Origin: Tribonema minus
Taxonomy: Eukaryota > Sar > Xanthophyceae > Tribonematales > Tribonemataceae
DNA: 64,000 nt
NCBI GenBank assembly: GCA_017506865.1
Contig: JAFCMP010000551.1
Location: 540,100 to 604,099, forward strand
Reading direction: 5' to 3'
The notes under the pieces are model-generated. The model had not been told where the DNA came from. It saw nothing but the letters and a program-made list of their open reading frames with translations, and searched no databases. A program made the position numbers and the translations under genes. Numbering within the stretch: position 1 is the stretch's first letter; every line of letters begins with the position of its first letter. This document shows, one piece after another, positions 3,441 through 40,268 of this stretch.

Positions 3441-4613
3441 CTAGCCACTTGTATGACCAGCTGCCGTCCTCTTCTGCTTACGGTGTACTAGTAGCAACTG
3501 GCACAGCTTCTGGTCAGGGTCCAGTTCTTGTAGCTGTGCGGGGTCGAGGAGGGCATGAACTCCCTCAACTTCAAGTCGGGTAGGTCTAGGGTGGTAGGGC
3601 TTCATGTTCTCCACATGCGTGTCTGTCTCGCGTATGCGCGTGCCCATGAGTTGGCACTGAAAAGACACAGCCCAGGATCACCATTGTGAGCGACTAGTAG
3701 CTTCCAGGGGCCAGTGTAATGTGCTACAATGGCACTTGCACGGCCGCGCGACGGTGGCTCCTTGATCCACACAAAATCACCGACTTGAAGGTGCAGAGTG
3801 CGTGACATCTGGTCATTGCGAGTCTGGATGCGGTCAGCGCGGCGCTGCAACGCCTCGCCAATAACTTATTCCGCCATTCTGAGGTTCTCTTGCAGATGCT
3901 GCACTTCCGCATGCAGGTCTTGTGAGTTTCCATCCTCAGAAGTGAAAGCATCGAGGGGGAAGCGCGCCTCACGGCCAAAAACGCAGAAGAATGGGGTCAG
4001 ACCCGTGAGCGCAAATTGCACAGCGTCAAGGTTTCATGCCAGCGTGCCTGGTAGTGAGAACACAGTCTAGCGAGCGCCCTCTTGATGCGCCCATTCAGGT
4101 TGTCAACAACGCCGTTAGATTGAGGATGGCATATGCGCTGGTTTCAATCTTGTGGGCTGCACAGAAACGACATAGGCTGTTAATGAGCGAACTCATGAAT
4201 TCAGCCGCCTGGTCGGACACCAGCTCTTCTACTAGCGCGCCGCACTCAAGAAGCACTTGCGCTAGTAGAGGAGCGGCCTCAGCTGCCGTTCGCGTCTTCA
4301 CAGGAAAGATCCAGCAGTATCCAAGCAGGTGTCGGTGCCCTTCTAGGGAAAGGACGCCGGGTTCCGTGTAGTCGATGTGCAGGCGTTGCCACATGCGCAG
4401 GGGTGGCATCAAGGCTTGTTTAAACTCACAGTTTTCGCCAATTTGGCACAAACAGAGCCAAAACCAGGAACCAGCCAAGGGCCACTGAGAAGGGAAGCGA
4501 GTGCCACGTGTCAGTTCACCATAAGGTAGCACGACCACAGACCAGTCTCTCGCTGACACGAGCAGCAGTGGTAGTTGACAGGCGACATTTGGGCATTGCA
4601 AGTCTGCTGCCAC
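3441..4613 (-). pseudogene. Ty3/Gypsy integrase core and GPY-type C-terminus (broken)
   Basis: Minus-strand frames carry the end of a Ty3/Gypsy pol. From 4613 inward they show a DDE integrase core: RLHIDYTEP (first Asp), VEELVSDQAAEF (second Asp), then, after a frame change near 4130, HPQSNGVVDNLNGRIKRAL, where the expected Glu of the third catalytic position reads Asp. Further down, 3602-3850 reads VGDFVWIKEPP and HYTGPWKLLVAHNGD, the GPY/F module that follows the core in Gypsy integrases, and 3441-3668 gives HVENMKPYHPRP before a stop. At least two frame changes make it a pseudogene. It may be the distal part of the element whose H2C2 finger lies at 9.7-10.4 kb, but that link is inferred only from strand and order. 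Confidence 0.75.
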
Positions 4614-6235: not shown

Positions 6236-6475
6236 ATCTTAACAATGTACGTGGGCACTACATACTGGAATTTCCGAAGTCAAGGTGGCCTCTAGGTCGG
6301 CGTCTATAGCTACAGTGCGCGCGCTTAGTGACTTATTAATAGGGTTGCTCAGCTTATTAAATTAGCCGTCCAGAGTCACCCGATCCGCATCATCCGAGCA
6401 GCCTTTCTGAGACCACGGTGTGCATCATGCTGACTCGCAGAGCACTCTGTCGGCCTTCCGGCTGTTCTGCAACGG

Positions 6476-8596
6476 GTGACGGCCCTGCGGGCGGCTTCCG
6501 TCTCGGCGGACACACCGGCGCGCAGGCTGCACGGGCTTGCCGCCGCGTACGGTTCTCGTTTACGTACGTGTGGCGGCGACATGCGGCAGGTGGTGTGCGC
6601 GCTGGGGGGCGAGTTTGCTGCACCGCATTTAAATGCGACACGCATTCGCCGTGCTTTGGAGGCAGTGTCGTTCCCTGCCAGGAAGCTGGCGCTGCTGTGC
6701 GACGTTGCCACGACTGGCATTCGCCCCCCCGTTAGCGGCTGCAGTGCTCATCAGTATGACGGCGCCCGCTGGCGACTCTGTGGGCGTCGACACGCTGCCC
6801 ACGATGAACTACAGTTACTGCGCATGCTGGCTGAGGAGGAAGTAGCGGGGCACTGCAGTGTACTGCACGCCGACGTTGCGCGATCCCTTCTGCCGCAGCT
6901 GGTAGTGTCGCCGGTGTACTTGATCAGCAAACCGGAATCTGGCAAATTTCGGCGCATCATCGACCTCACGTACTGCGCGGGGTCGAGCGACTCCATCAAC
7001 AGTGCTACCGACATGGCGGCGGGTCCCGCTTGCGAGTTCGGTCACGCCTTCGAGCAGTTTTTGAGCAGAGGTGGGTGCACTGCGCCTGGGCCACCCGGAC
7101 CGCCACATCTACATCCGCGCGGACGACGTAAAGGCCACCTTTCGGCAGATGAAAACTGACCTTGCGTCCGCTGCGCTGTTCTGCTACCGCCTTGCGGGGC
7201 TAGTGGTCGTGGACCTGCGTGGGCGCTTCGGTTGGCGGCTCACGCCGGGGTTCTTCGATGTCTTTGCACAAGCTATTCAGTGGCAGATGCGGGCGGCGGG
7301 GCCTGGCACTCCCACGTCGGTGGCGTCTCGAGCCATTGCCGCAGCCCATATCCACATCAGCCGACCACCGTCCACTGCCCACATAGCCGCCATTCCCCCC
7401 GACCCACTTGCACAACCGCTCGTCCTCAGCGAGGGGGCGCGGTACAACGTGCACTACCACGTTGACGACGGTGTTCAAGCAGACGTGCGAGAGGACGTAT
7501 TGCTGCACAGGGCGGCAGTGCTCACAGATGCACACTTTGCACTATTTGGCGCGCACGAGCCTCACCTACGGCCGTGCCCGATCAGCCTAGCCAAGATGGG
7601 CAACTGGTCCACCACAGCAGTCATTCTCGGGATTCAGGTCGACACTGCTACCATGGAGCTTTCGCTACCGGCAGACAAGCGGCGGAAGCTCACGGGGTTG
7701 CTGTTCACCAGCTTCCCGCCATCTAGAATGACCGCAACGGTGCACAACGTGCAAGTTCTGGTCGGCTCGCTGCGGTTCCTGGCGTTGGTAGTGCGGCTGG
7801 GAAAGTACTTCTTGTCTCGGCTGCAAGAGGCGTGCGGATACACAGCCGGGGCCCCGCCGAAATCGATGCTCACGCTGGTCGACGGCTTCCACGATGACTT
7901 GCGCTGGTGGCGCTGGCTGGTGCACCAGACCGAGCTCATGGCGGTGTCCCTGGCCATGCCATTGTGGATGCATGTTAAACGGACGCCAAGCCGGCAGCTA
8001 CTGTCCGACACATCTAAGTGGGGTTGGGGGGCTACTGCGCAGAGCTCAGCGTCTTCTGGCGGCTACCGCTGGCGGATGATCTGCGAGGCCGTTTTAATGG
8101 CAGCAGCGGCAAGGCCATCTTCATCAACGAGTTGGAGCTTGCCGGTATGGTGCTCAACGCGTGGATGGTCCTGGTGCTCGCGCGCGGCGCTGTGGCGGGC
8201 GAGAGCGTGCTGCTCCTCGGCGACAATGTCACAGCCGGCTCGCGCATACACCGCGCGGGGACGGCCCGCCGGGGACCAGCTGGCGCGCTAGTACGGGTGC
8301 TGGCGGTGCTGGAAATCCAGACTGCGGTCAGCTTCCACGCGCGCCATGTGCCCGGCGTCGACAACGGCATTGCTGATCTCCTGTCCCGCGCGTCCTTTGA
8401 TCCGCATCGCTCCTCCCTTGTACCGTCCGCATGGTCACAGCTGCACGTTCCGCCGCCGGTTGCCGGCAATATTTTCGCGATGCTGCGCGGCGACTGCGGC
8501 TTGGAGCGCTGGCTCCAGACACCATCGCTCAATATGCCAGCGCATGGCGGAGCTGGCAGGCCTGGCGCACGGCTACCGGGCAGCCACTCTTCTTAG
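6476..8596 (+). pseudogene. DIRS reverse transcriptase-RNase H ORF (two frame changes)
   Basis: This is the reverse transcriptase with RNase H of the DIRS element. The first frame (6476 to ~7070) gives VSPVYLISKPESGKFRRIID, the fingers start. After a frame change near 7071 come IRADDVKATFRQMKTD (motif A Asp), GWRLTPGFFDVFAQAIQW (motif B) and YHVDDGV (motif C). A second change falls at the G6 run near 8027. RNase H then follows with GWGGYCAEL, FINELELAGM, LLLGDNVTAG and HARHVPGVDNGIADLLSR, which contain the usual acidic and His positions. The two breaks make this a pseudogene unless they are sequencing errors; the second, in a homopolymer, is a likely artefact site. The RNase H end overlaps the recombinase frame by about 166 bases. 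Confidence 0.8.
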
Positions 8597-9516
8597 CCGG
8601 CACCGACACTGCGGCGGACGCGCTCGATCTGGCGGACTACGTGGCGCACTCCTACCTCGTGGACGACGTCACTGCGGGTACCATCGAAAACCGCCTCTCG
8701 GCAATTAGGTGGCATCACCTGCACACTGCGAGCGTCATACTCGCTCCGCACCCGCTGTGTACAGCCACGCAGTACTCCGTGGCAAAGCTGTGCGGTGCCC
8801 CCAAACCGCGCGAGGGTCTGTTCCTGCCCGCTATAATGGCGGGACGTGCAGCAGCAGCGGCGGCAGGCGGCGTCACGTTAGCGGTCTGGCGCGGCGTTGC
8901 CCTGGCCTTCTTCCTCCTCCTGCGTGCGTCAGAGATATGGGCCTACCACAGCGATGGTCTAGTGCACCCCGACTTCTGCGTGCAGGCGGGAGATGTACAC
9001 TTTCGACGGCAGGGGCGGCCGCTCCCTGCTGCCGCCGGTCACACGGCCGACGAAGCCCGTTTCATCATCCGCGGCAGCAAAACCGATCAACTACGAGTTG
9101 GCAGTACGGCGGTGCTGACAGCAGCCGGGGGTGGCTTGGCGGATCCGGTTCGCATATTTGCGGACGTGGTCGCTGCTCTTCCTGCGGCGGCGACGGCGCA
9201 GCACCCCCTCATGTCGGTTGCCACCCGCGCAGGGGGCATTGGTGCTCTCAAACGCAGGGAGGCGGAGCTGCTGATACGCTCGCTCGCAATGCGCCAAGGA
9301 CTGGATCCACGGCAGTACGGTACCCACTCCATGCGCGTCGGGGGCGCCACGACACTGGCCCACGCTGGTGTGCCGGGCCGCCTGATACAGGCAGCCGGCA
9401 GGTGGCGCTCGGACGCGTTTCAAGACTATATCCGACACAACCTCGCCGACTCTAAGCGCATATCATGTGCCTTGGCTGGCGAAGGTCCCCAGCGGGTGTT
9501 AGGCCCCATGGCCTGA
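8431..9516 (+). CDS. DIRS tyrosine recombinase
   Basis: A 361-aa uninterrupted frame in +1, overlapping the RNase H frame. It encodes the site-specific recombinase that integrates the circular DIRS cDNA. The N-terminal part (residues ~25-110) resembles a SAM-like core-binding domain (IAQYASAWRSWQAWR). The catalytic domain has Arg165 in LLLRASEIW, Lys217 in RGSKTDQ, His299 and Arg302 in THSMRVGG, Trp325 in AGRWRSD at the second His/Trp position, and nucleophile Tyr333 in FQDYIRH. All expected residues are present, so the protein could be active even though the upstream RT is broken. The true start is uncertain because the frame is open upstream of this ATG and DIRS recombinases often overlap RT. 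Confidence 0.85.
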   Translation: MVTAARSAAGCRQYFRDAARRLRLGALAPDTIAQYASAWRSWQAWRTATGQPLFLAGTDTAADALDLADYVAHSYLVDDVTAGTIENRLSAIRWHHLHTASVILAPHPLCTATQYSVAKLCGAPKPREGLFLPAIMAGRAAAAAAGGVTLAVWRGVALAFFLLLRASEIWAYHSDGLVHPDFCVQAGDVHFRRQGRPLPAAAGHTADEARFIIRGSKTDQLRVGSTAVLTAAGGGLADPVRIFADVVAALPAAATAQHPLMSVATRAGGIGALKRREAELLIRSLAMRQGLDPRQYGTHSMRVGGATTLAHAGVPGRLIQAAGRWRSDAFQDYIRHNLADSKRISCALAGEGPQRVLGPMA

Positions 9517-9704: not shown

Positions 9705-10429
9705 TCAGCTGCCCTGTTCTCTTGTGTGCTCAACATCCAAGATGGCATGATGTCCCATAATGCATGCATGTACGCACAGCATTAACCTTGTGCGCCAAAA
9801 ATCGCATCCTGTCGACCAGCCCAGTAGGCTAGTTCTGGCAGTAACTTGTGGTTTGGTTTGCTGGCAGGGCACGTACGAGCGTACATTGTCTCGGACGTCT
9901 GCGCCCAAACCTCTCCAGTACATGTGCTCTAGCACCTTGACGTGCGTAGCTGCAGTTGAGGGGTGTTGTGCACTGCCGTCGTCGTGACAAAGGCGAAGTC
10001 GAGTGGCTTCAAAGCGTCGGGGACTACCCACTGGGTAATCCGGGAGCCCTTCTTGGAGCGACTAGTCATAAAATGCACAAGCAAGCCATCAGGTTCAGCT
10101 GTGAAAAACTCTTCATTTTGACTCGCAAATCTGGCAATATTCGGGTCAAGGGTCTGGTCGTGTGCTTCTAGGTAGCGTTTCACAGACGAGCAGAAGTGGT
10201 CAGTTGATTTCTTGACACCGCGCAGAGTGCCAGCCAGCGGAAGCAACATGTCCTCCTCACCTTCGTGTTGCACGTCATCTTGACCAGGCATGATTGCAGA
10301 GCACCAGAGGCAGAAGAGAGTTCCACCTTGTGTGGATGCAAAGGAAGTGAGGTATTCACAGGATGCACACGACACAAGGTGGTGGTATTGCTTCCCTACA
10401 GCACGGGGCACTAGAACTTGCCAGAACAC
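9705..10429 (-). pseudogene. Gypsy pol fragment with H2C2 integrase finger
   Basis: Two overlapping minus-strand frames carry part of a Ty3/Gypsy polyprotein. The recognisable piece is the integrase N-terminal zinc finger at about 9990-9850: HDDGSAQH, THVKVLEHMYWRGLGADV and VRSYVPCQQTK. The family pattern is H-H-C-C; here the first Cys of the last pair reads Tyr, so the finger is damaged. The upstream part (10429 inward) is open for 166 aa and contains no domain I can name; RNase H would be expected somewhere before it but is not visible. It may belong with the integrase core at 3.4-4.6 kb, with the DIRS element between them. Confidence 0.65.
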
Positions 10430-10485: not shown

Positions 10486-10745
10486 GGACGAGTACGAGTA
10501 ACGAGTACTCGAGTACTACTCCCCGAAAAATTGAAATTTTAAACGAGTACTCGAGTACTACTCCTCGAAAAATTGAATTTTTGAAACGAGTACTCGAGTA
10601 CTACTCCCCCAGAGAATGAAAATTTATCCGAGTATACGAGTACTTACTCGAGTACTTGGCGAGTACTCTAGTACTTGACGAGTACCAGGAGTACTCAACG
10701 AGTACAAGAGTACTAAACGAGTTACTTGGAGTACTAAACGAGTAC
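10486..10745. repeat. CGAGTAC/GAGTACTCG palindromic repeat cluster
   Basis: More than fifteen copies of GAGTAC or its complement GTACTC occur, many as the palindrome CGAGTACTCG. Three longer units of ~55 bp each contain GAGTACTCGAGTACTACTCC followed by a GAAAAATTGAA-like or GAATGAAAATTT-like tail. Such subterminal motif arrays are common near the ends of DNA transposons, and this one adjoins the inverted duplication below. Confidence 0.65.
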
Positions 10746-10800
10746 TTCCTCTGTCCCAGTTTGTTAGACAGTTCACTTTGAAAGGCAGTTTTGAGGGCAA
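10741..10800 (+). repeat. Inverted repeat, left arm
   Basis: The segment around CTCTGTCCCAGTTTGTTAGA and CAGTTCACTTTGAA matches, in reverse complement, the segment at 12020-12080, with weaker similarity running inward through AAGATGGCA. Both arms translate to LPLSQF(V/I)RQFTL outward to inward, so coding sequence may lie in the arms. The pair may bound a ~1.5-kb DNA element. Confidence 0.55.
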
Positions 10801-10812
10801 AGATGGCAGCAA

Positions 10813-11999: not shown

Positions 12000-12080
12000 A
12001 GTGTTGCCATCTTCACTCTCAATATCGCAATTCAAAGTGAACTGTCTAATAAACTGGGACAGAGGAAGTACTAAAATTGC
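12000..12080 (-). repeat. Inverted repeat, right arm
   Basis: This is the reverse-complement partner of 10741-10800. GTGAACTGTCTAATAAACTG and GGGACAGAGGAAGTACT pair with the left arm, differing by a few bases. It is followed by GACGAGTACTT, an echo of the CGAGTAC motif of the left side. Confidence 0.55.
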
Positions 12081-12287: not shown

Positions 12288-15200
12288 TTTTTATTAATTC
12301 TCGCTCAGGGCGCGAAAAAGCCCAGATGATTGGCATCTAGCTGTAAGGAATCTACATGTCGTATGACAGTCTGAAAGTGTCGCAACGACAACCACTCAAA
12401 CGCCGCCGCCGCCAAATGGCATCTCGGGGTCCTCCCCTACGTCCTCCTCCATGTGCCCCCCCCCCCTGGATTCTGCCATGTGTGTCATGACACGGCCAGA
12501 GTACGCCATGTGGAGCGCTGCCGACAGTGCCGAGCGTAAGCGCGCCAGGGCGATGCCCTTGAGAGCTTTAGGGCGCGCTCCTCCGGGCACTGACATCCTG
12601 CTGGCATACTCCGTCGCCACAGCCTCCAGCAGCTTCCGCCCCTGCTCCCCGATGCTGCCAAATGACCCTATTGCCAATGTGGCAAGTTTGTAGCAATTCT
12701 GATCATAATGACCAGAATAGTGGGTAGTTTTGGCGGCCTCTTGGTCGCGGCAGCATCGCTCGGGGTCTGCTGCAGTCTTCGCCGCCCGCGACGCCACCTG
12801 TGCCTCGAAGCAGGTAACGTCCACCATGAGCGGTAGGTGGCGTGTCGGGTCGTCGTAGCCGGTCACCGGGAAGGCGTCGGCAGGCAGCACGATGTCCATC
12901 CTGCGACTCCCCGGCGGCCCGGCGGACCCCAGAAACGGCGTGTAGTCCTCGTCCACCAGTCCCGTTTTGAGGTATTGCCGCAGGAGGCGCTGCGTGGCCC
13001 TCTTGACGCTATTGTGGACAATGGTGTCGTGCGCCTTGACGCGTGGCGCTTGACACAGCCGTGCATGCAGGGTGCCGCCCGGCGACTTCCCGCACAGCTT
13101 GCAGCCTGCCGTCTGCTCCTCTACTCCGATGGCGCGTTTGACGGCCAGCTGCCAGGATAGGCCATCGAACGAAGCCGTTGTGGAGTACATGGGCTCGTTG
13201 AGGAATGCCATGCCGATCGAGTGCATGTGGCGCTGCGACCGGAATCGAGCAAGTGCTTGCGTGCGTTGCGTGCCCTGCGGCAGCTGTTGCAGGTCCGCCT
13301 CCACCTTATCTGCAAGCTCGGTAGCGACGGCATCTGCAAGCGCACTCTGATTGGGGCGCTTCAGGCTACACTGCAACTGCAGAGCACTGGCGTCAAGTAC
13401 GCAAGCAGCATCCGCACCAGTGCCACCACCTGCTGTCGGCCGCAGCGGCGGCTGCTGCGTAGGTGGTTGCTGCTGCAGTGGCGTTAGCGCTGGTGGCAGT
13501 ATATGTTCCAGCTTGTCACCTGTTGCTGCACGTAGAGATGTGGCAGCTGTGGCGATCGTCTGCATGAGGGGCAGGCGCGCCACCTCTGCTGCTGCTGCGC
13601 CTTGTAGCATTGCTGGTGTGGAACGCGCAGCGCCTGAATTGACGGCTGCCGCTGCTGCGTGCGCTGGTGCTGCAGCTGTGCCGCCTGCCGTTGCTGCTGC
13701 TGCCAGTGGTGTTGCTGCTGCCGCAGGTGTTGGTGCAGCACCTGCCGCATTGGCCGCTGCCACCGCCATTGCCGCTGTCGCAGCCGGCACGGTTGCGGCG
13801 CCGCCTGCCGACGCTGCTCCTGTTGCAGGTGCTGCAGCAGCCCTTAGGCTAGTAGGGCCTGTAGCAGCTGTATTGCCTATGCCCGCAGCCGCTGCTGTTG
13901 ATGCTGCAGTTAGTGATGCCGCCGAGGCCACTTGAGGTGCAACATGTGCTGCCGCTGCTGCAGCAGCCTCTGATGCTGGAGCAGCTGCTGCTGCCGCCGC
14001 TGCTGCTGCCGCCGGAGTAGTTGCGCCGTGCGCCGCCGCTGCTGCTGCTGCCGCTGGTGCCGCCTGTGCTGCCGCCGCGGCCCCTGATCCAGCGGCAGCT
14101 GCGTCGTGTGTTGCCGGAATGGCTGCGCCATAAGCGCGGCCAGCCGCTGATGCAGTTGCCGCTGCCGGGGCGGTCGCGCCTCCACTGGCAACCGCCGCTG
14201 CCGCTGTAACAGTTGCCGCTGCTGATGCTGCTGGTGCTGGTGCTGCTGCCGCTGCTGCCGGTGCCGCTTGTGTTGCCGCATCCTCAGCAGCGTTGTCTGC
14301 AGCCGCTTGAGGAGCCGCCTGCTGCAGCACCCCCGCCCATCCAGAGAGTGCTGGTTGCAGCGCTTGCAACGTGCCCGCCACATACGCAGCATCAGCGATG
14401 TCGCAGGCGCTGGTAATGCCAAGGCCGCCATGCCGTGTTGGGAGTCGCGCTTGCTGTAAGGCTGGGCCGTGCGCTGCCAGATGGAAGTGGGCCCCACTTT
14501 GCTCAAACTGGCGCCAGGTCTGGCCTGGTGGCTGCAGGCCCATTGAGTGCTCAAGCACCCACTGCGTGACCCGATCCCACTCCTTGGCGGCTGGCGCTGT
14601 CTGCGTAGTGGGAATGGTGCGCAGGCAGTACGTCATGCGAGGCACCACGCAGTAGCGCAGTAACCTGAACATAGCCCTCGGAGATGTCAGGCGCGCGCAT
14701 CGCTCTGCAAATCGAGCCCCTGCCCCGCCTGCACCCGCTTCCCTGCGCAGCCATGCGTCCACAAAGCTGCTGTGGCCCACCGGCACCCCCAGCAACACAG
14801 CTCCACGGTTCTGATTTTCATCCGTATCCCCCACTAGCTGAACGCCCAGCTGCTGCAGCAGTTGCCGCTCGTGGTCTGTCACCACATGCCCCCTGCCAGG
14901 CAGCGCGCGTGACTTGGTGAGGTTTAGCTCCAGCCCCACCTCCGCAAAGTGTTGTTTGAGCTGCGCCACCGCCTGTATGTCATCCTGAGTCAGCGTGCAA
15001 GCGCCTGTTCGGACGTTGGCATCGTCCATGTAGGCGCCCATCCGCCTCCGCGCGCGCTGCGCAGCCGCCGCCTCATTGAACCGTTTCAAGCACTGAGCAA
15101 TGGCGCCGCAGAAGAGCATCGGTGCCGCGGGGTCCCCCTGCTTAAACCCGCGCTGAGACATGATGATGCGCGTGGAGCCGTCAACGTGCTGGAACAGCAG

Positions 15201-17410
15201 GCGTGGCCGAGTGCGAACGTATGTGCCGATGAAGTAGTCGAGGAAGTCCGGCAGCTGTGCTGCTACCCATTCCGCTGCCGCCAGGACGAACACCATGTTG
15301 AAGGCATTCTTGAGGTCCAGCATGAACTGCCAGTGACCGAGCTCATACGCGAGTTTGCCGGCCATGGCCGCTTTCTCCGCTCCTGCTGAGACGGCTACCC
15401 CATACTGCCCGTCTGGCTCAAGGAGCTCCGCCAGGAAGTCTTTGCGGTCTGCCACGTACACCGAAGTGCATAGTCGCTGCAGCACCTCGCCGCAAACGAT
15501 GGGCCGCTGCTTAGCTGTACCATCTTCCTGTTGTTCTGCAAGTGGCGTCAGGCGCCCCGCGCCATGCAACTGCCAGAAGGCATCCGGCAGCCGCGCAGCC
15601 TCCCGCATAACGGTCTGAAGCCACCGTGTGAGGACAGCAGCAAACTCATGCCGTCCCCAGCTTGTGCGTAGCGCATCCTGCAGGTGGCTGTAGCGCAGCC
15701 CCGATGGGCCTGCTCCACTGTAAGGGCTTGCTCGCTGGATGAGCTTGGCAACCGTCTCTGGCTCAATTCCCTCCCCCTGTAACAGGCTGAGTTCTGCTGG
15801 CATGTCGGCTGCTTTCGCCACAAGCTGATCAACCATGCCGGATAGCTCATGGAGTTGTTCCCCTGGCGCAGCGGGGGGGTGTTTGGACTGCATGGCGGCA
15901 AAGCAGTCATCATCAGGTATCGCCACCGTTTTGGGCTGAAGGAAACGCGCTGCCTGCTGTAGCCCCCCCCGTGTGCCCATGCACTGTAGGACGTAGGCGT
16001 TGATCGCTGCCTCCGTTTGCTGGCGCGCGCGCCAGCGCCGGTGCGCACGCGCGTGTGCGAGGAGCGCTGGCACCAACCGGTCAAGCTCACCGCGTGCCAA
16101 CATTCTGATTCTGTCGGAGCGAGTGATGCCAGGTGCGCCATCGGTGGAGGTGATGAGTGATGGCATGAGGTGGTGTAGAATCGTGGATCTTTGCAGTCGC
16201 TGCACCCGCCCTGCGGAATCTGGCTCCCGCGCCGCATTGACGAACATCGTCATTGTGTGTGCCAACAGATGTGTTGCTGCGTTCTCCAGTGCAGCTCCCA
16301 CATAGCGACGATTGCGTGGTCTAGCAAGGCTTCTAGTTGTCGCGAACTGCAGCTTGCACAGCTCATCGAGGCTGATGCTGTCAAGCACTGCTGCGACTGC
16401 GGGGGTTGAGATGGTCCACGTGAAAAGCCCACCTGCCCCACCTGCTGCGCCTGCAGGGCCTGGCGCTGCCGCTGCTGTCGCCGCACCTGCCGCTCTGGGG
16501 CCCCCTCCGCCGCCGCCGCGGCCGCCACGACCACAGCCTCGTCCGCCGCTGTCGCTGCTGCGACCGCTGCCACGGCCACCGCGGCCGTTTTGAGTTCGCG
16601 CGCCACTGCCGCTGTTGCTAGCACCGCCGCTGCGGCTGCTGGCATCACTGCTGCGGCCGTTGCCAGCGCCGCTGTCCTTAGTACCGGCTGCACTGCCGCC
16701 GCCGGCACCGCTGCTGCTGCCGCCTCCGGTTCTGCTGCCGCTAGTCGCTCTGCTACTGCTGATGTCTGCATCATTGCTGCCGCTGCGAACGCGTCCTCCA
16801 TTGCCACGTCCGCGCCCTCCACTGCGACCCCGACCCCCTCGTGTAGCACTGCTGCCCCCACGTTCCGGCCTCTTCGAGCTGCCGGAGGAGCTGCTGCCAC
16901 CAGCCTGAGCAGCAGGTGCCTGCTGCGCGTGCGCTGGTCCCTTTGCGTAGGGGTTGCCGATGGGTGTGCACGCCGGTTGCTGCTGTGGCAGCGACGTGGT
17001 AGCTGTTGCCGTCGATGCATCAGGTGCTAGCGGTGCTGCTGATGCTGTTGTTGACAATGTTGCCGCCACTGCAGCGGGTGAAGTGATAGGCCTGCATTTG
17101 CGGCAGTGCTTGCCCGCGCTGGCATCGCTGCTGTCCACTCTGAATGTCTTGTTGGCATGAAACAGGTTTTTGCACAAGGCACACTCGGTGTAGATGGTTT
17201 GCAAGTGCGACGTGCTGAGGTCGGAGCGCTCCAGGAACGTTGTTGCTGTCCCACTGTGGTGTTTGCGCTGGTGCTTCGCCGCGATGTGGGCGTTTAACCT
17301 CTGCTGTAACGAGAGCAGCGACATGCCCTTCTTCACCACGAGGTCGCATAAGTTGCACTTGTACTCCGGGTCCGCACTGCCTCCACCTCCAGCTTCGTCG
17401 TCTAGCATCA
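12288..17410 (-). mobile_element. R2-like (RLE-type) non-LTR retrotransposon, copy 1
   Basis: The element spans from a T-rich 3' end on the plus strand (TTTTTATTAATTC at 12288, an A-tail when read on the coding strand) to about 17410, where Gypsy RT sequence begins abruptly. The 3' UTR of ~110 bases is conserved in copy 2 (51574-51690). The 5' junction falls within a few bases of the ORF start codon, so the copy is either nearly complete or 5'-truncated. No target-site duplication was found, because the 3' flank (to 12287) is not the continuation of the Gypsy sequence at 17411; a rearrangement or second insertion must separate them. Confidence 0.8.
12396..17408 (-). CDS. Non-LTR polyprotein: zinc fingers, RT, Ala-rich domain, restriction-like endonuclease
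   Basis: A single open frame of 1670 aa. Residues 18-46 form a C2H2 finger (Cys18, Cys21, His41, His46), and Cys76/79/102/105 a zinc-ribbon-like site. Residues ~110-320 are Gly/Ser/Arg-rich. The RT lies at ~630-900, with FMLDLKNAFN (motif A, about residue 700), QRGFKQGDPAAP (motif B) and AYMDDANV (motif C, about residue 793), then LLGVPVGHSS. Residues ~1025-1335 are almost pure alanine with Thr, Pro and Gly. The C-terminus has a CKLCGK...H...C knuckle near 1437, then RRMDIVL and LPLMVDVTCFEAQ, the Asp pair of a PD-(D/E)XK restriction-like endonuclease. This order is that of early-branching, RLE-encoding non-LTR elements (R2/NeSL/Utopia group), which nick DNA and prime reverse transcription there. 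The exact clade is not decided. The long alanine domain between RT and endonuclease is unusual. All catalytic residues I can see are intact. Confidence 0.88.
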   Translation of the reverse strand: MLDDEAGGGGSADPEYKCNLCDLVVKKGMSLLSLQQRLNAHIAAKHQRKHHSGTATTFLERSDLSTSHLQTIYTECALCKNLFHANKTFRVDSSDASAGKHCRKCRPITSPAAVAATLSTTASAAPLAPDASTATATTSLPQQQPACTPIGNPYAKGPAHAQQAPAAQAGGSSSSGSSKRPERGGSSATRGGRGRSGGRGRGNGGRVRSGSNDADISSSRATSGSRTGGGSSSGAGGGSAAGTKDSGAGNGRSSDASSRSGGASNSGSGARTQNGRGGRGSGRSSDSGGRGCGRGGRGGGGGGPRAAGAATAAAAPGPAGAAGGAGGLFTWTISTPAVAAVLDSISLDELCKLQFATTRSLARPRNRRYVGAALENAATHLLAHTMTMFVNAAREPDSAGRVQRLQRSTILHHLMPSLITSTDGAPGITRSDRIRMLARGELDRLVPALLAHARAHRRWRARQQTEAAINAYVLQCMGTRGGLQQAARFLQPKTVAIPDDDCFAAMQSKHPPAAPGEQLHELSGMVDQLVAKAADMPAELSLLQGEGIEPETVAKLIQRASPYSGAGPSGLRYSHLQDALRTSWGRHEFAAVLTRWLQTVMREAARLPDAFWQLHGAGRLTPLAEQQEDGTAKQRPIVCGEVLQRLCTSVYVADRKDFLAELLEPDGQYGVAVSAGAEKAAMAGKLAYELGHWQFMLDLKNAFNMVFVLAAAEWVAAQLPDFLDYFIGTYVRTRPRLLFQHVDGSTRIIMSQRGFKQGDPAAPMLFCGAIAQCLKRFNEAAAAQRARRRMGAYMDDANVRTGACTLTQDDIQAVAQLKQHFAEVGLELNLTKSRALPGRGHVVTDHERQLLQQLGVQLVGDTDENQNRGAVLLGVPVGHSSFVDAWLRREAGAGGAGARFAERCARLTSPRAMFRLLRYCVVPRMTYCLRTIPTTQTAPAAKEWDRVTQWVLEHSMGLQPPGQTWRQFEQSGAHFHLAAHGPALQQARLPTRHGGLGITSACDIADAAYVAGTLQALQPALSGWAGVLQQAAPQAAADNAAEDAATQAAPAAAAAAPAPAASAAATVTAAAAVASGGATAPAAATASAAGRAYGAAIPATHDAAAAGSGAAAAAQAAPAAAAAAAAHGATTPAAAAAAAAAAAPASEAAAAAAAHVAPQVASAASLTAASTAAAAGIGNTAATGPTSLRAAAAPATGAASAGGAATVPAATAAMAVAAANAAGAAPTPAAAATPLAAAATAGGTAAAPAHAAAAAVNSGAARSTPAMLQGAAAAEVARLPLMQTIATAATSLRAATGDKLEHILPPALTPLQQQPPTQQPPLRPTAGGGTGADAACVLDASALQLQCSLKRPNQSALADAVATELADKVEADLQQLPQGTQRTQALARFRSQRHMHSIGMAFLNEPMYSTTASFDGLSWQLAVKRAIGVEEQTAGCKLCGKSPGGTLHARLCQAPRVKAHDTIVHNSVKRATQRLLRQYLKTGLVDEDYTPFLGSAGPPGSRRMDIVLPADAFPVTGYDDPTRHLPLMVDVTCFEAQVASRAAKTAADPERCCRDQEAAKTTHYSGHYDQNCYKLATLAIGSFGSIGEQGRKLLEAVATEYASRMSVPGGARPKALKGIALARLRSALSAALHMAYSGRVMTHMAESRGGGHMEEDVGEDPEMPFGGGGV

Positions 17411-17713
17411 GAGGTTGCTGCGAATGACTTTATTCAAGGGTCTGTAGTCAGCACAGAAGCGAACTTTGTCTTTCTGCATCACCAACACAGGATTACTGGC
17501 CCAGGGGCCGCTGGCAGGCCTAAACTGACCGCGTTTACGCTCATTTTCAACGGCCTCAAAAGATGATTTTAGCCTCTTGTTCGGCCCACCTGCGTGCTTT
17601 GACGGCAATTGGCGCTGCATCGCCGGTCCGATTTCAACGTCAAAGCGGTCCGTCACCTTGGGGTTCTTGGGGTCTTGCGCGAAGGCGCCGCGCCGGCGGC
17701 GGAGCACTTCCAT
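17408..17713 (-). pseudogene. Gypsy-1 reverse transcriptase, N-terminal part
   Basis: The 101-aa frame contains the pre-RT motif FAQDPKNPKVTDRFDVEIG and the RT fingers (ASNPVLVMQKDKVRFCADY, then RPLNKVIRSNL), then stops at the boundary with the non-LTR element. The palm with the catalytic YxDD is absent here. The same pre-RT motif (FAKDPKHPTVANLAEFEID) occurs in the plus-strand Gypsy remnant at 38.9 kb, so the two are related. The upstream frame 17653-17844 carries the spacer between protease and RT. Confidence 0.8.
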
Positions 17714-17937
17714 AGCGCGCTCGTAGTAGGTGACGCCGTGTTGATCGCGTTAAGAACGTCAAGCACCTTGCCGTCTTTGCTCAGCACTTCATGCAACTCT
17801 TCATCTGTGCATGTGCCCAGGGGGGCATTATGCTCCTCTGCCACCTTGCGTCTGAACGCAGCTCTTTCTGCTTCAGCTTGCGTGACAGGGTCTGGCTCAG
17901 ATGTTTTGTGCTCTGACGCGCAAGAGGAGTCTGGCTG
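17714..17937 (-). pseudogene. Gypsy-1 protease-RT spacer
   Basis: The frame EELHEVLSKDGKVLDVLNAIN and neighbouring sequence link the protease and RT regions on the minus strand. Frame breaks occur on both sides. No catalytic domain is expected here. Confidence 0.45.
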
Positions 17938-18920
17938 TCATGCAGGTCTAGACCTGATCACGGCAGGCGTGTCTTGGCCTAGATGTTTCAACGCTATTCT
18001 TGTCAGGTTTGCAGTAAGTTCTAATTTGCCAACGTCCATGTTGCAGATCATGTCAGGCGTCTCAATGACACCTACGATCGCGCCTTCTGGTATGAACACT
18101 GGCATGGTAGAAGTATTCTCGGCTAGCAGCCCAAGCGGCTTGTGCGGTGACGCAAAGTTCACCGTATCCATGAGCACAGTGCCTTGAGCAGCCAGCCTGT
18201 TCACCGTCACAGACGCCTGTGGCGCATCGGCAGTGAGCAGCACTTCAGCAGGTCCAGAGCACTGTACTGGCGGCTGTGACACAACTTCAATGGTTCTAAC
18301 GGTGTCAGCGTTGATTACTTGATCATGGTTGTGTGTAGAAGGTATGTGCGCGCTTGCAAAGTGGGTTTCTGGGATGTTTGCACCTTAGCAGCGCCCACTT
18401 TGATTGAGTTTGCCGCGGGGGGGTCTAGAGTCCCCAATCTTGTGTGCTCGCGTATAGGCACAACAGGTCCAGCAGAGCCAGCGGGATGGAAGCGCATCCC
18501 GTGCTCATATGTGATTGATGAGCCAAACTTGCCAAAGAAGCTAGACCCTAGGATGGTCTCATAGGGCAAGTCCACCACGTAGAAAGCATGTGTGCAAATG
18601 GTGTCTTTGAAGCACACCTGGGCGTGCACAACACCAGTAATCAGCACTGATTTCTTGGCGTCAGGTAGTTCAACACTGGTAAAGTGGCCATCAGAGAGCG
18701 GGCAAATTGAACCGTGTGGCAGCTGATGCGCACGCTCAGTGTTGATGAATTCGGCCTCGGCGCCGTTGTCCATCAGCGCGCCAAGTACCAGCTCTTGTAT
18801 GCCATCACCGACTTGTGTGCGCACTGGCATGCGCACAAAGCTGTTTGTCTTGGGTTTGCCAATCACACGCGCTCTCTGCAAGGTTTTAGGCGGTTTGTGA
18901 CGTGCTTGCCATCTGGGCAT
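17938..18920 (-). pseudogene. Gypsy-1 aspartic protease region
   Basis: Two minus-strand frames (18315-18920 and 17938-18282), one after the other. The first has a retropepsin-like core: ELVLGALMDNGAEAEFINTE, where the catalytic D-T/S-G reads D-N-G at residue 51, and later LPYETILGSSFFGKFG, matching the second-half ILG-Asp/Ser-x-F motif of Gypsy proteases. In Gypsy elements this enzyme processes the Gag-Pol polyprotein. A frame break separates it from the downstream frame, which continues PPVQCSGPAEVLLTADAP and probably forms the linker towards RT. The Asn in the active site and the frame breaks suggest an inactive copy. Confidence 0.7.
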
Positions 18921-19200
18921 GGCTCTAAACGCGTCAGCATGGCTTTAAACGCGTCAGACCAGGTTGCTGAGCATCATATTGCTGACATCAGAGTCGATGT
19001 CTGCTCACGGCGTCAGGTGATACTTCAACAAGACCGGTGTTCGACGTCTTGCAGGGGTCAGAAGCAGCAGGCTCTTCTTCATCCTCGCCGTACACCCAAG
19101 GGTTTTGAAGTTGGCATGTCACTTCCACAAGTTAGCGTGGCAAGCAACATGCGCCCTGCATTGCGTGTGAACTGGTAGAAGCTTCTCATGCAAGCACTAG

Positions 19201-20258
19201 CTAGGCGCAGCACTGCAGGTTGTTCAAGGCTAGACCACCAGGAGGGGGAGAGGTGTGGTCATGCACCACCACTTCACCCGGTGCAAGCTCGGTGGTATCT
19301 TTAGGACTAGGCCATTCTGTAGGCAGGGATGCAACTGCATGCAAAGCGAGCATGGTTGCAGCTACACAGTTGGGTTGCACTATGTTTGCAACCCAGCGTT
19401 TCTTCTGGGTAAGCGTTCCTTCAGGGTAAGGTTCGCCATAGCCAAGCGAGGACATGACTTGATCAGGGCTCAACACAAGAGCTTTGCTGGCTGGTCCTGC
19501 ATCTTTATCGCGTGGCTGGTAAGATGAGGAAGGGCCTCGCCCGGGCTGGCGAGTGATGGGACTAGGGAGCGGCATGTCAGCGGATAGCACGCCTGGCGTC
19601 GCGGGCTGCCTAGGGTCCCAGTAAAACGTGTCATGGGAGCAGCCAAGATGCTCGCGAACAGTGCAAGGCTTGCTGGTGCGGAAGCGCTCATTGAGAATTG
19701 CATTCAAGCGTGCAAAGCGCTGAGGCAGTCGAGAAGTGTTCGGAGCCGACACAGTGTAATCGCGCTCGCGTGAAGGTGCACCATATACGTCTGTGCCACG
19801 AAACTGCACCTCATAGGTGGAATACCCCCTTGTTCCCATAATGCGGCAAAAGTCGCGCCACGAGTTGGATAGGAGCATCCTAGGCATGTTCTCGTTCACT
19901 ATCAAGGCTGGCAGGCAATCGGCGGCGATCTGCGCTACATATACGAGTGCACGCGCTGCATCGCCCTCAATCCCCTTCCCAGCTGGGGAAAATTCAACAC
20001 GCGAAGATGTGTTCCGTCTGGCTGGAGCTCCTTGAGCCGCTTGCGGACCTTAGGGCTAGCTACGTCTGCGCAAATGACTTCCGTGCCTGGGAAGAGCTTC
20101 ATGTACTGCTCACACGTAGTCTTGCAACTATCCACCGCAAGTACTACCTGCACGTCTGCATGTGCTGCACGTGCAAACTCCTGCAAACCCCTATGCACCC
20201 CCCCTATGCCGCAACACAACTCTGCTATCCGCAGTTGCTTCCTGCCTGACGACGTCAC
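19201..20258 (-). pseudogene. Gypsy-1 cytosine-C5 DNA methyltransferase domain
   Basis: Two adjacent minus-strand frames form a C5-cytosine methyltransferase. From 20258 inward: LRIAELCCGIGGVHRGLQ (motif I, SAM binding), VVLAVDSCKTTCEQYMKLFP (motif II), EVICADVAS (motif III). After a frame change near 19990 comes SSRVEFSPAGKGIEGDAA where motif IV (PPCxxFS) should be; the catalytic Cys position reads Arg. Then follow IVNENMPRML (motif VI, ENM for ENV), GAPSRERDY (motif VIII), LVLSPDQVMSSLGY (motif IX) and ANIVQPNCVAATML (motif X). Active enzymes of this family transfer methyl from SAM to cytosine C5. This copy should be inactive. It lies between gag and protease in the same orientation, so it is most simply part of the retrotransposon polyprotein. 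A host gene fragment is less likely given the co-linear flanking domains. Confidence 0.85.
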
Positions 20259-20957
20259 GCCGGCATCGGCACCTCCTTAGGCTGCGGATGTGGCACGGGC
20301 AAAGTGGCGGGAGAGATGTAGCCAAGGTTAGAATCTGGAGCTTTGGTCTTACTTCTAGACGCGGTGTCTGGGTCGAGAGTGACATCTTGTGCTGCAAGTG
20401 ATGCACAACCAGGCGTGTCACCAGTGTCTGGAGCAGTTGCGTGTGTATCAAAGTCAGGCATGCACGCTTCTGATTCACTATGCGCGTACAAGACCGAGGC
20501 TAGCATGCAAATGCCAACTCCATTTGTCTTGTCAAGCACGCATGTGACCGGTGCGCTGGCCTTCAACGGCCACTGGCTGCGCAACTGGTACTTCAAACAT
20601 GTCCTGCGTGGAGCTAGTGAGATGTTTGACTAGCCCAAGTGGCTCTGGCGCGTCAACATCCATGGGTACACTAGGCAAGACATGAGAAGTAGTCGCAGGT
20701 GACTCACTCGTCCGGTTGCGCTTCTGGGCGCGGAGCTCGTCACATCTGGCTTCAAGCTGGTCATCGGGGCCGCTTCTCCTTCTTGAGCTTCTCGATGCAC
20801 TGGTTGTACCAAGGGACGCACTGCACCTGGTGCTCGTGCAGCTGGCCGTCGCTGAGGAAATGTTTGTGGCAGCCCCAGCACTCGCCGCTGCGCAGCTTCT
20901 GGGGCTTGCCGGCTGGCTTGTCAGGCTGCTTCTGGGGTTTCTCTTGGCGGCAGACAT
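20259..20957 (-). pseudogene. Gypsy-1 gag C-terminal region with C2H2/C2HC-like finger
   Basis: Minus-strand frames join gag to the methyltransferase. At about 20880-20790 one frame reads SGECWGCHKHFLSDGQL then HEHQVQC, a compact Cys/His finger (C-x2-C-x9-H-x2-H with a trailing Cys) instead of the usual retroviral CCHC knuckle. It is followed by a Lys-rich stretch and then by acidic, Pro-rich linker (DVTLDPDTASRSKTK). At least two frame changes occur. The finger probably binds nucleic acid, by analogy with gag. Confidence 0.55.
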
Positions 20958-21900
20958 TGCGGCAGACTTGGCAGCGCCGCCAGCCGAGCTGGCGTCGCTG
21001 GATCTAGTTATGGTAATAGTGCCGCCGGTGATGCCGGCGAGGGCGTAGCTGGCAAGTTTGCAGCCGACTTGAGGTTGTACTTGAAGACTGTGAGCTCCTC
21101 GCGGCGCAGCGCCTTGTAGTAATCGGCGGCGCGCTTGGGGTCGAGGACGCTGACTGCGCAGACGGTTGGCGCGGGGGCGTAGGAGCTGCCGTAGTTGCCG
21201 GTGTGGCTGGCCGCTGATGTTGCAGTAGCTGGGTGAAGCTGGGCGCGCTTGCGCGAAGGGGTAGGCGCCCGCGCTCGGGGGGTATGGCTACTAAGCGCTG
21301 GGGCGCACTGGCAGCTGCTGAGCGCTGGGGGCAACTGTTCAGTGCTGGGGGGCAGCTGCTGGGCGCCAAAGAGCTCGGGGCGCGCGCGCTGGGCAGCGTC
21401 GGCAAAGAGTGCCGGCGCTGTTTCGGTGAAAAAGGGCTTGGACGCCTCGGTGAGCTTCGTCGCAAGCGGCGGAGGCCATCGCCAGGTTGCGCTCGATGTC
21501 TGCGTCAATGTCGCTCGCGGCGCTCTCAATGCCCTTGCGGTTCACTGGGAGGGTCGGGTTGCTAGGTGCGACGACGGGAATTATATTAGAGAAGCTCGTG
21601 GGGTTGAAGGAAGTAACAGGGGCGTGGCTCATAATAGCGCGCGTGCTCTCCGCAGCACGGCGCACAGCCACGTCGTCAACGCCCGGGAGGCGTTCCGGAG
21701 TTCCCTGACAATGATGTCAAGCTGCACAGGCCCAGCACTGGGCGCCGGCACAGCCACAGCGGACGTTGCATCCGGCAGGTTTCCCAGCATCACGGGGGTA
21801 CCAGCAGCGGCGGCAGTTACAGCAGGCGGGGCGGTTGGCGTCACGGTCCTAGCAGTCGGGGGGGCGAGACGACCGAGGCGACCGCGGCCGACGTACTGAC
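20958..21900 (-). pseudogene. Gypsy-1 gag-like region (frameshifted)
   Basis: Three successive minus-strand frames (21629-21844, 21339-21671, 21008-21529) share composition and read on from one another: VQLDIIVRELRNASRA, then FNPTSFSNIIPVVAPSNP and SAASDIDADIERNLAMASAA, then KPFFTETAPALFADAAQ and ADYYKALRREELTVFKYNLK. Position upstream of the finger, methyltransferase and protease indicates Gag, the structural protein of the virus-like particle. No domain is strong enough on its own. No long terminal repeat was found beyond it. Confidence 0.5.
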
Positions 21901-24019
21901 CTGTTCAGCTGGAGGTGCTGACACAGGCTGCGCAGAGTGGGGCTGCACCTGGGTACCCGCACTACTGCTCCCACTTTCACCGCTGGCTCCCGTAGCTCCA
22001 GTACTTCCCCTTAGGCCGCTTCGCCGGCCGCAGGTTGCCCGGCATTACCAGCGTGGTTTGCAGCGTCTCCCTGAAGCACGTGAACAGGGCAGCAACTCGC
22101 CACAGCGCGCACTTTGTGGCAAGCGGGCAAACGCTCAAAACATGCGCGTTGATGGCGTGCTGGAGCACATGAGATTTTCGCTCTAGGCAGCGTGGTCTGC
22201 TCAAAGGTTATGCAGTTCTGCTCAAAGGTCATCCCCCTTCCACTTACAAAGTGCTGGAGGATCCACATGGTCTGGTCTAGACAGTGTATAACAACTCCAC
22301 ATTGTTTGAACTCAATACCTCGGGGTGATCAGTCCCGCAGCATTTGAGTTTCACGCTGTGTGCGATTTTGTGCCAGGAATCGAGTGCACTTCAGCCGGTG
22401 GTGCTCACACCGACTCATTGAAAACCGCTGTTTGCATAGTCGCACGTCTATGCTCACGGAATTCTACAAGCAGCTGCAGCATCTTGGTGTTTTATGCTCG
22501 GCGACTGTTGTGTTTCAAGGGAGCGCGAGTCTAGGTTTTCGTTGCTAACTATGTCGTCGTGTGCAGGGAATCACGACTTGCCATGACATAATAGCAACTG
22601 ATGGATCCTGACGCATCATGTTATACCTCAGCATCCCTATGGCTTCCTCGGTGCTGCCATCGCGACAACGTATTCGCGGCCGCTTCACTTCGGAATACCC
22701 TTCGTGCCTTGCTGCACGGTTGCGGAGAGACTAGTAGACGAGTTCTGGCCAGGTCTAGTGCTAACGCTGTCGATAGCAAGTTGGAGCTGAGCCATCTGAT
22801 ACAGCAAAACGGCCTGGCTTCCATGCTGCCAAAGGCAGATAGGCTGTAGTGCTGCTGACGAGACCAAGTTGCAGCCAACTTGCTGGACAAACATTAGCAA
22901 AGCAAGAGAAATGAGACACACCTCTGTGGACATGAACTGAAGGCCACTCGAATGGCTCAGCTCCAGAAAGGCTTGCTGTCTCCCAGCAGGATGTCTCTCT
23001 TGCTCAGGGCCAGAACCAAGGTGACCAAAAAGAGCATTGTCCTCAGGCTGGCTAGGACTTGAAGTCGAAGAACGGTCCCAAGAATGGTCCTGTTCTAGAA
23101 CGACTCTCCTAGTGCTCTGTGCTGAAAACAGAAACAGAGAGCTTGCATCACAAATGCTAGAAAACCATGCCGCCGATACGTAAACATACCTCACAAAGCA
23201 GAACCGGCCTCTGCACACCCAGGGCCTCGCCTAGCAGCAACGCCACAGAGGCCTAATCGCAGACAAAGCAACTTGATTTACAGCCCTCTGCTGCTTCTGG
23301 CGGCCGGTCAGAACAGCCAGGCCTTGCGACCCGGTCATGAAGCAACCAAGAATAGCTTCTATCGCCACAGCGCAAGTGAGCTTGCTGCCCTGGCCCTCTT
23401 TGATCCCTGGCCCTCTTTGATCCTTCAACACTAGGAAAAATTCTCCAAGAGTACCTTGCAACCGACTGCAAGCGCTGGACTTGCGCTGCGATGGTGTCCT
23501 GCCAGCAATGGCTTTGCAGCCAGACACCCCCCCCCCTCATGATGGCAGCCGCCATCTCCTGTCCGCAACCGCGTGCGCCCAAAAAGGCCAATAAGAATAA
23601 CAAAAATCATTATTGATTACCCCCACTGTTGCAGAACGAGTGACTATTTGGAATCCGCGAGCGCATGATGCTGTCTGCATGCATGTGTCGGAATGACTAG
23701 TGTGCAGCTAGAGCTCCATGCGAGGATGCCAAGCCAACGTAGCAAGGCACAAAGGAGGAAGAGAGACTCCGGCTGTAGCACCGTGTAAGAAGAAGTGAAT
23801 TGATATAGATGGGGCAAGCGAAGCATGCCCTGAGAAGGAAACGTGCTCTGGAGAGCAACATGTAAAAATCGGGAAAATATGGAGAGACCTGGAATTGTCT
23901 CGGGAAAATACTGTGACCCTGCTCAGTAACAGTAGCCAGTCAGACCCTGCATAGTGCAACTAACAGCTGCAGACCTAGGATAGCATGCTATTCTGACAGC
24001 ATGATGCCAGGACAGCTTC
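21901..24019. other. No recognisable gene; possible 5' part of Gypsy-1
   Basis: Short frames only; 22685-23218 (-) gives 177 aa with no known motif. A direct 16-bp duplication, GGCCCTCTTTGATCCC/T, lies at 23391-23424. The expected 5' LTR of Gypsy-1 would be here, but I found no matching partner. Confidence 0.3.
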
Positions 24020-40038: not shown

Positions 40039-40060
40039 TATGAGTGTGGCCAGGCACAAG

Positions 40061-40268
40061 TGCCTCCTCTTCAAGAATGATATCAAGTTCTTGAGACACA
40101 TTGTGGGGGACGATGGCCGATGCCCAGACCTGAGAAGTTGAATGATGGACATGAGCAATCCCAGTGCCTCCTCTTCAAGAACAAGATCAAGTTCTTGAGA
40201 CACATTGTACGGGCCGATGGCCTATGCCCAGACCTGAGAAGTTGAATGATGCACATGTGTGCAATCCC
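40061..40268 (+). repeat. 104-bp tandem duplication inside Gypsy-3 RT
   Basis: TGCCTCCTCTTCAAGAA begins both 40061 and 40165, and CCAGACCTGAGAAGTTGAAT ends both copies. The duplicated peptide is KCLLFKN(D/K)IKFLRHIV. The copies differ at several bases. Neither copy-number artefact nor recent event can be excluded. Confidence 0.75.

Follow-up and report, generated by a model that had tools for sequence, protein, structure and literature searches.

The methyltransferase element and its surroundings

The stretch of Tribonema minus DNA analysed here, hereafter the window, comprises 64,000 nucleotides, and its positions 19201-20258 (minus strand) are the C5-cytosine methyltransferase (MTase) section of a decayed Ty3/Gypsy element. 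The polyprotein of a relative on contig C23 (L009) aligned in order along the window minus strand, from gag through the MTase (20249-19069), the protease and the start of the reverse transcriptase (RT) to the integrase, which bore out the claim of an earlier note that C5-MTase motifs on this strand are co-linear with gag, protease and RT. At the 5' end, a remnant of the long terminal repeat (LTR) was located at 22797..23002 (minus strand), with 71.9% identity over 221 columns to the LTR of the C23 element in a blastn comparison. The gag-like region (20562..22097, minus strand) was recovered by tblastn with the L009 polyprotein in six pieces of 50-59% identity, and it contained a Cys/His finger at about 20830-20900 (minus strand; GECWGCHKHF...HEHQVQC). 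The gag-like region described in the earlier note was therefore upheld as a region, but Pfam named no gag domain in it or in the frames of its relatives, and the finger, judged by eye, was unlike the retroviral CCHC knuckle.

The MTase itself was split across two frames by a frameshift. The N-terminal part, with motif I (ELCCGIGG), occupied 20013..20258 (minus strand) and was 78-91% identical to L009 and L002, and the remainder (19228..20013, minus strand) lay in another frame, contained motif IV (TSSR), motif VI (ENM), motif VIII (RER) and the distal part, and showed 90% amino acid identity to a copy on C9. The Pfam search proposed earlier revealed RVT_1 in a LINE ORF (see below) and PF00145 in both MTase halves below its cut-off of 22 bits: the frame at 19935-20276 matched profile positions 2-59 (E 5e-4, 20 bits, slightly below the cut-off), and the frame at 19201-20049 matched positions 73-182 (E 0.081, 12.8 bits). 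The match was not due to chance, because the 282-residue piece of this MTase had open-frame relatives at 60-90% identity, whose long frames passed the PF00145 cut-off. The motif list given previously (I-III, VI, VIII, IX and X) was right in recognizing an MTase and required correction in two respects, as motif IV was also present and the motifs were distributed over two frames. In motif IV, the catalytic Cys read Arg (TSSR instead of TSSC). A 20-bp deletion of this motif was considered and rejected, since frame 2 read TSSRVEFSPAG, which is a Cys-to-Arg change beside the frameshift.

Downstream of the MTase, a protease-like domain (LMDNGAEAEF; 18327..19001, minus strand) showed 71% identity to L009 residues 1323-1541, and it was followed by a linker and the start of the Gypsy RT (17420..18324, minus strand; 68-71% to residues 1543-1849). 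The RT was broken by a LINE-type ORF of 1677 residues (12396..17429, minus strand), a single stop-free frame with an RVT_1 match of E 1.9e-10, and L009 residues 1850-2435, which comprise most of the RT and RNase H, had no minus-strand match in the window between 17420 and 10210. Two integrase pieces of the same Gypsy element, parted by a 5.4-kb insert, were found further downstream: the N-terminal (H2C2) region at 9834..10210 (minus strand; 76-81% to residues 2436-2561) and the core with the C-terminal part at 3567..4433 (minus strand; 71-87% to residues 2559-2859). With its frameshift, the Cys-to-Arg change, a LINE in the RT and another insert in the integrase, the window copy is dead, and it is itself unable to methylate because the catalytic Cys and the reading frame are lost. 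Its nearest copy, on C9, showed 91% DNA identity and 90% identity in the 282-residue protein piece.

Several further features were observed in the window. The 1677-residue LINE ORF was uninterrupted, had the same orientation as the Gypsy element around it and is possibly young. The insert that divides the integrase (6434-9516, plus strand) contained ORFs that, by eye, resembled a DIRS-type RT and a tyrosine recombinase. Short direct repeats of the AACGAGTACTCGAGTACT type were present at 10500-10644, and a pair of 71-nt inverted repeats, 1.2 kb apart, was found at 10741-10811 and 12002-12072. A second MTase remnant at 34063-35444 (minus strand), with an ORF of 397 residues containing IENV, was most similar to group H of the relatives described below (24% over 239 residues, E 4e-14), and Gypsy RT pieces lay downstream of it at 33347-33180 and 30850-30438. 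The remnant belongs to a lineage unrelated to the element at 19201-20258, so that two MTase-Gypsy lineages lie within one window. A further Gypsy RT was observed at 38734-40705 (plus strand; main pieces 36-46% identical to the A1 RT), and the plus strand next to it showed no MTase match.

Relatives, domain orders and mobility

The T. minus genome (158.18 Mb, 554 contigs) was searched with the 282-residue MTase piece, which gave at least 139 matches (138 candidates scored); the first 58 or so were 60-90% identical, most of the others had about 31-32% identity, and frames of 3,104-3,501 residues were common among them. A search with PF00145 gave 123 matches, that is, all candidates scored. When all queries, including four further ones, were pooled and clustered at 2.5 kb, at least 300 MTase-matching places were obtained, a lower bound in which fragments are counted and at least four places are not tied to such elements: C223 has two of them, C181 has another, and a host DNMT2-like exon lies on C523. 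The intact relatives sought in the earlier note were found: in some relatives, one open frame of 2,700-3,500 residues encompassed the MTase, RT and integrase, and PF00145 scored 43-77 bits in the relatives' frames (cut-off 22). In particular, the frames of A1 (L009), A2 (L011), B (L013) and C (L015) scored 55, 60, 61 and 44 bits for PF00145, 111, 110, 94 and 103 for RVT_1, 78, 80, 78 and 78 for RNase H, 62, 66, 59 and 68 for Integrase_H2C2, and 29 (below its cut-off), 28, 21 and 38.7 for rve (cut-off 32.6), respectively; the rve match was below the cut-off in most frames of the relatives. A real lineage of MTase-bearing elements is thus evident from younger relatives with unbroken frames in the same genome.

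In the relatives, Pol was arranged as in Ty3/Gypsy, with the RT first, followed by RNase H and then by the integrase (H2C2, rve). The single frames of A1, A2, B and C ran in the order MTase - protease-like - RT - RNase H - integrase, where the protease of C was placed by similarity. In D (L053) and E (L054), the protease region preceded the MTase: D had WDTGAS upstream of the MTase, and E had a sub-threshold protease match at residues 591-682, the MTase at 853-1172 and the RT at 1572. The MTase ORF of F (L055), G (L056) and H (L057) lay upstream of the RT, as a separate ORF in the copies fetched, and a motif search found no protease position in these three groups. Additionally, group X (C545 and others) had the MTase and RT within a listed frame of 3129 residues. 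The comparison of these arrangements points to two polyprotein orders among MTase-Gypsy elements, gag-MTase-PR-RT and gag-PR-MTase-RT. The former, which had been proposed previously for the window, was recovered in single open frames of relatives and, in two elements, between LTRs with 4-bp duplications. The Pfam protease matches were all sub-threshold: they scored 13.5-22.2 bits in the A1 and B frames and 19.2 bits in that of E, and the C1 frame had none. We also observed that the active-site string of the protease region was DNGA, DCGA or DPGA in A, B and C (L009, L013 and L015) and DNGA in the window copy; the usual form in aspartic proteases is DT/SG.

In the A1 element on C23, the two LTRs (385 bp) shared 99.7% identity, and in the B element on C537 those (413 bp) were 100% identical. 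Target duplications of 4 bp flanked both elements (TGTA in A1 and TTGC in B, with the LTR ends set at TG...CA by eye), and both contained a purine tract before the 3' LTR and a tRNA-like primer site (TGG...) after the 5' LTR. For the C element on C157, the stretches searched yielded no LTR pair. The near-identical LTRs and 4-bp target duplications of two copies indicate that the MTase and Pol move as one unit.

Comparison of the A1 RT with the genome at E <= 1e-30 gave at least 129 matches (127 of 553 candidates scored), and the matches listed represented 127 RT loci after two split ones were merged. An MTase was present 0.5-6 kb upstream on the same strand at 116 of these 127 listed loci. The pairing was found at 44 of the 45 RT loci listed in group A (RT >= 82%, the window's own group), at all 22 loci listed in the 55% group, and at 44 of 60 in the 56-61% group, where queries with B and X added six and left 10 without. 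Two RT loci of the 56-61% group had an MTase at 9.4 and 10 kb, and nine RT loci among the matches listed had none within 12 kb, namely eight in the 56-61% group and one, on C257, in group A. The C257 locus (about 694273-697346, L059) was an A1 copy with an identical RT, in which an internal deletion of approximately 3 kb, running from gag residue 262 towards the RT, removed the MTase; an RT frame of 1829 residues was listed there. MTase-free relatives may exist among the other eight loci. Copies of the family without an MTase, which the earlier note had named as the evidence to look for against co-linearity, were accordingly represented in group A by this internal deletion. These results showed that the MTase belongs to the mobile unit and that almost every related RT locus scored has retained it.

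Relationships, selection and methylation footprint

By RT identity, the elements fell into lineages I (A, B, C and G; 53-88% identical within), II (D, E and F; 65-84%) and III (H), with 25-34% identity between lineages, and from this comparison we consider that three Gypsy lineages carry MTases. In the MTase tree, lineages I and III formed one group (SH-aLRT 99) and lineage II another (99), whereas the union of all three had a support of only 19 in a comparison with the host DNMT2 exon, two stand-alone enzymes and 20 proteins from the database. In this phylogeny, of the kind suggested previously, a single origin of the element MTases is, at a support of 19, neither demonstrated nor rejected. 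A grouping of the lineage I and II MTases without III was rejected on a quick tree (p-AU 0.005). The RT and MTase trees agreed roughly within lineages, with weak inner branches in the RT tree (41 and 38).

When compared with the PDB, the lineage-I profile matched DNMT2 best (60.5 bits), followed by HhaI (57.7) and DNMT1 (33.2), and the lineage-II profile matched DNMT2 (48.4) and DNMT1 (44.5). The lineage-I match to DNMT2 spanned only profile positions 5-178 of 339 and so was not a whole-domain match; it is the catalytic half of the MTase that resembles DNMT2/HhaI. No DNMT3 or DRM names occurred among the 52 PDB sequences matched by the lineage-I profile at E <= 10, and no DNMT3 occurred in the lineage-II matches listed to E 0.01; DRM2 chains were present in the library and were recovered with a control query. 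In the protein database, lineage I had one close match, P0001 (81%, a metagenome contig), and the next were at 22-33%; lineage II matched P0030-P0034 (42-68%, environmental records) and a T. minus piece, P0039. The P0001 and P0030-P0034 matches indicate that relatives exist beyond the T. minus genome, and outside the element family the MTases were at best 22-33% identical to database proteins. P0039, an NCBI hypothetical protein of T. minus, was located at C540 (100% over residues 13-262 and 99% over 258-483). On the strength of this match, an origin from a green alga, considered at first from composition, was rejected in favour of a xanthophyte, within the Stramenopiles. The DNMT2-like exon of the host (C523), which scored 131.6 bits against human DNMT2, was clearly distinct from the element MTases and was not grouped with them in the weakly resolved tree. 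Among 3491 candidates, no relatives of the group-B MTase were found in long proteins elsewhere at E <= 1e-3. A viral origin was rejected for lineage I, whose profile found 0 relatives among 25 stretches, and for lineage II, with 79 relatives at 22-36% and none close, in a non-exhaustive search by one or two short patterns. Intronless HhaI-like MTases of 370-380 residues were also observed on C223 and C181 (L027, L028 and L029); L027 and L028 were 49% identical, L028 and L029 were nearly identical on different contigs, and all three are perhaps on another mobile or viral carrier.

The MTase dN/dS (Nei-Gojobori) was 0.07-0.33 in 12 pairs from elements, with several dS values above 1 that are rough; 14 pairs had been run, and one same-locus duplicate and one stand-alone-gene pair were dropped. 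Values above 0.3 were confined to the A2 pair (dS 0.008) and the H pair. The MTase and RT values were 0.176 vs 0.059 for C1-C2 and 0.237 vs 0.100 for D-E, and they were equal for B; in the A1-A2 comparison, the RT was saturated. Among 36 aligned relatives (duplicate places and L004, L005, L007, L021, L022 and L038 omitted), the catalytic Cys of motif IV and the RxR of motif VIII were present in every sequence, and motif VI was ENV or ENL in 35 of 36, the exception being L003 with ETV. The element MTases are thus shown to evolve under purifying selection with their catalytic residues kept. Motif IV was PPC in most relatives, SSC or SAC in A1, APC in A2, TPC in X and PHC in one B copy; with SSC in the window's group A1 and TPC in X, some lineages may have a weak or inactive enzyme.

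The CpG observed/expected ratio was 0.83-1.02 in seven element stretches, compared with 0.69-0.91 in eight 8-kb parts of the window. Heavy CpG depletion of the elements was rejected, and a strong sign of heavy CpG methylation is absent, since the ratio was no lower in them than in the window. Among the cytosines of the window copy, polarised C-to-T changes affected 20 of 268 at CpG (7.5%), 4.5% at CHG and 22 of 716 at CHH (3.1%); the corresponding CpG, CHG and CHH values were 6.5, 2.0 and 2.6% in L002 and 4.4, 3.6 and 2.9% in L003. In these few copies, the mild CpG bias would be compatible with methylation by the host or by the element.

Possible function and comparison with known systems

According to the available portion of PMC5890265, retrotransposons with their own cytosine MTases, of Dnmt3 or orphan LINE type, occur in dinoflagellates and one charophyte, which agrees with the statement of the earlier note that such elements are already known. 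The precedent is KnitGypsy-Dnmt3 of Klebsormidium nitens, described there as a Dnmt3-type MTase in a Gypsy Pol frame with DIRS-like repeats and Ka/Ks < 0.2. The T. minus elements share with it, as far as it is described in that portion, an intronless, multicopy C5-MTase within the Gypsy Pol frame under purifying selection; they are set apart from that description by the lack of a DNMT3 match, ordinary terminal LTRs (in two elements) and two domain orders, and they also differ in their several lineages and stramenopile host. The same portion reports numerous retrotransposon-borne MTases in Symbiodinium (SymbioDIRS-Dnmt3 and SymbioLINE-Dnmt, the LINE-borne ones of an orphan non-Dnmt3 type). T. 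minus is similar in the large numbers of such enzymes, but in contrast to those DIRS and LINE backbones its elements have a Gypsy backbone that includes an rve-type integrase and RNase H; the frames contained Integrase_H2C2 and rve, not a tyrosine recombinase or LINE endonuclease ORF. In yeast, two SymbioDIRS-Dnmt3 domains methylated CG de novo, and KnitGypsy-Dnmt3, the only Gypsy-borne enzyme in that test, gave no methylation, a result judged inconclusive by its authors (PMC5890265, available portion). The element MTases, with a domain of approximately 340 residues, are like DNMT2/TRDMT1 and the bacterial HhaI-type enzymes, which were the best profile matches of their catalytic half, but unlike these they are fused in Gag-Pol, and the host DNMT2 is a separate gene.

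Gypsy elements with C-terminal chromatin readers (chromo, Tudor) are known from Ectocarpus, and a Tudor-bearing Gypsy from T. minus (PMC12477816, available portion). These are likewise stramenopile Gypsy elements with an epigenetic domain, but the domain is a reader at the C-terminus and not a methyltransferase, and no mention of a C5-MTase Gypsy was found in the part of PMC12477816 that was available. Adenine- and cytosine-MTase Gypsy/DIRS retrotransposons are stated to occur in Stramenopiles among others, without being itemised (PMC6338049, available portion). A xanthophyte C5-MTase Gypsy was not described in the available portions of PMC5890265, PMC6338049, PMC12344493, PMC9998398, PMC10538959 and PMC12477816, with Repbase and the subscription literature outside the search. 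The lineage is apparently undescribed, as had been suggested, in a restricted sense: the host group (xanthophyte/stramenopile), the enzyme type, the domain orders and the scale are new, whereas a retrotransposon-borne DNMT, even a Gypsy-borne one, is known.

We regard it as nearly certain that the MTase lies within the Gag-Pol of a Ty3/Gypsy element, and we consider the enzyme to be probably catalytically active in most lineages. The function is inferred from the element anatomy and the DIRS/Gypsy precedent. The MTase would be produced as part of Gag-Pol, carried inside the virus-like particle, freed or not by the element's own protease, and would methylate cytosines of the newly made cDNA or the fresh insertion. 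A new copy would thereby arrive in the genome already marked, and the mark could act as a disguise as methylated host DNA or as fast silencing that is cheap for the host. That the element's own DNA is the main target seems plausible, at slightly less than even chances, and we consider the chances evenly divided for the account as a whole, in which the window holds a fossil LTR Ty3/Gypsy element whose Gag-Pol MTase, between gag and protease, methylated its own cDNA or new insertion.

A different substrate is a rival reading that we consider unlikely. The MTase might methylate RNA, with the packaged genomic RNA, the tRNA primer or the RNA half of the hybrid as targets, as the nearest solved relatives of its catalytic half are the tRNA-methylating DNMT2 proteins (60.5 bits in lineage I and 48.4 in lineage II) and the authors who described SymbioLINE suggested RNA as a possible substrate (PMC5890265, available portion). 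Against this, HhaI, a DNA enzyme, scored nearly as high as DNMT2 (57.7 vs 60.5 bits), the DNMT2 match ended at about residue 180, ahead of the target-recognition part, and the host's own DNMT2-like exon was distinct from the element MTases. Somewhat less probable still is that the fold was retained because it binds nucleic acid or serves the structure of Gag-Pol, with catalysis dispensable. The departures from PPC in motif IV (SSC in A1, APC in A2, TPC in X and PHC in one B copy) and the weaker constraint on the MTase than on the RT in two of three measurable comparisons would fit such a role, whereas the invariance of the catalytic Cys and RxR in all 36 aligned relatives, across all three lineages, argues for catalysis.

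An action in trans, in which the MTase would mark the chromatin of the host, rival elements or DNA viruses, is in our view improbable. The high copy number in the T. minus genome and the anti-viral role proposed for such domains (PMC6338049, available portion) would favour it, but no sequence feature points outward, and Pfam found no chromatin-reader domain in the frames scanned. The broken frames of the window and the two other elements inserted there might suggest instead that the MTase lies between gag and RT by chance, as a pseudogene of the host, an independent insertion or a chimera of the assembly. We give this hardly any credence, because many copies on different contigs have the MTase and RT in one frame, and in both elements tested the LTRs and target duplications enclose the two domains; the separate host pseudogene raised in the earlier note is contradicted by these shared LTRs and frames.

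Returning to an enzyme that acts on the element's own DNA, host maintenance could perpetuate element-set marks, given that DNMT5, HELLS and a putative CDCA7 are reported for T. minus (PMC10538959, available portion). A further reading, which we hold to be rather unlikely, is that different Gypsy lineages of one alga acquired orphan C5-MTases on two or more occasions, at positions upstream and downstream of the protease, and that the enzyme was no passenger but turned into an obligatory component of replication, working inside the particle on an intermediate of reverse transcription (cDNA, hybrid or tRNA primer). If this is true, element MTases would far outnumber the host's own DNMTs in the T. 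minus genome. A stramenopile genome is now available with a large, diverse and partly young population of non-Dnmt3 MTase elements in two polyprotein positions, in which it can be tested whether retrotransposons benefit from self-methylation and whether DNA or RNA is the substrate. Additionally, automatic annotation can count element enzymes among the DNMTs of a genome, and P0039, the hypothetical protein of T. minus, is a piece of such an enzyme.
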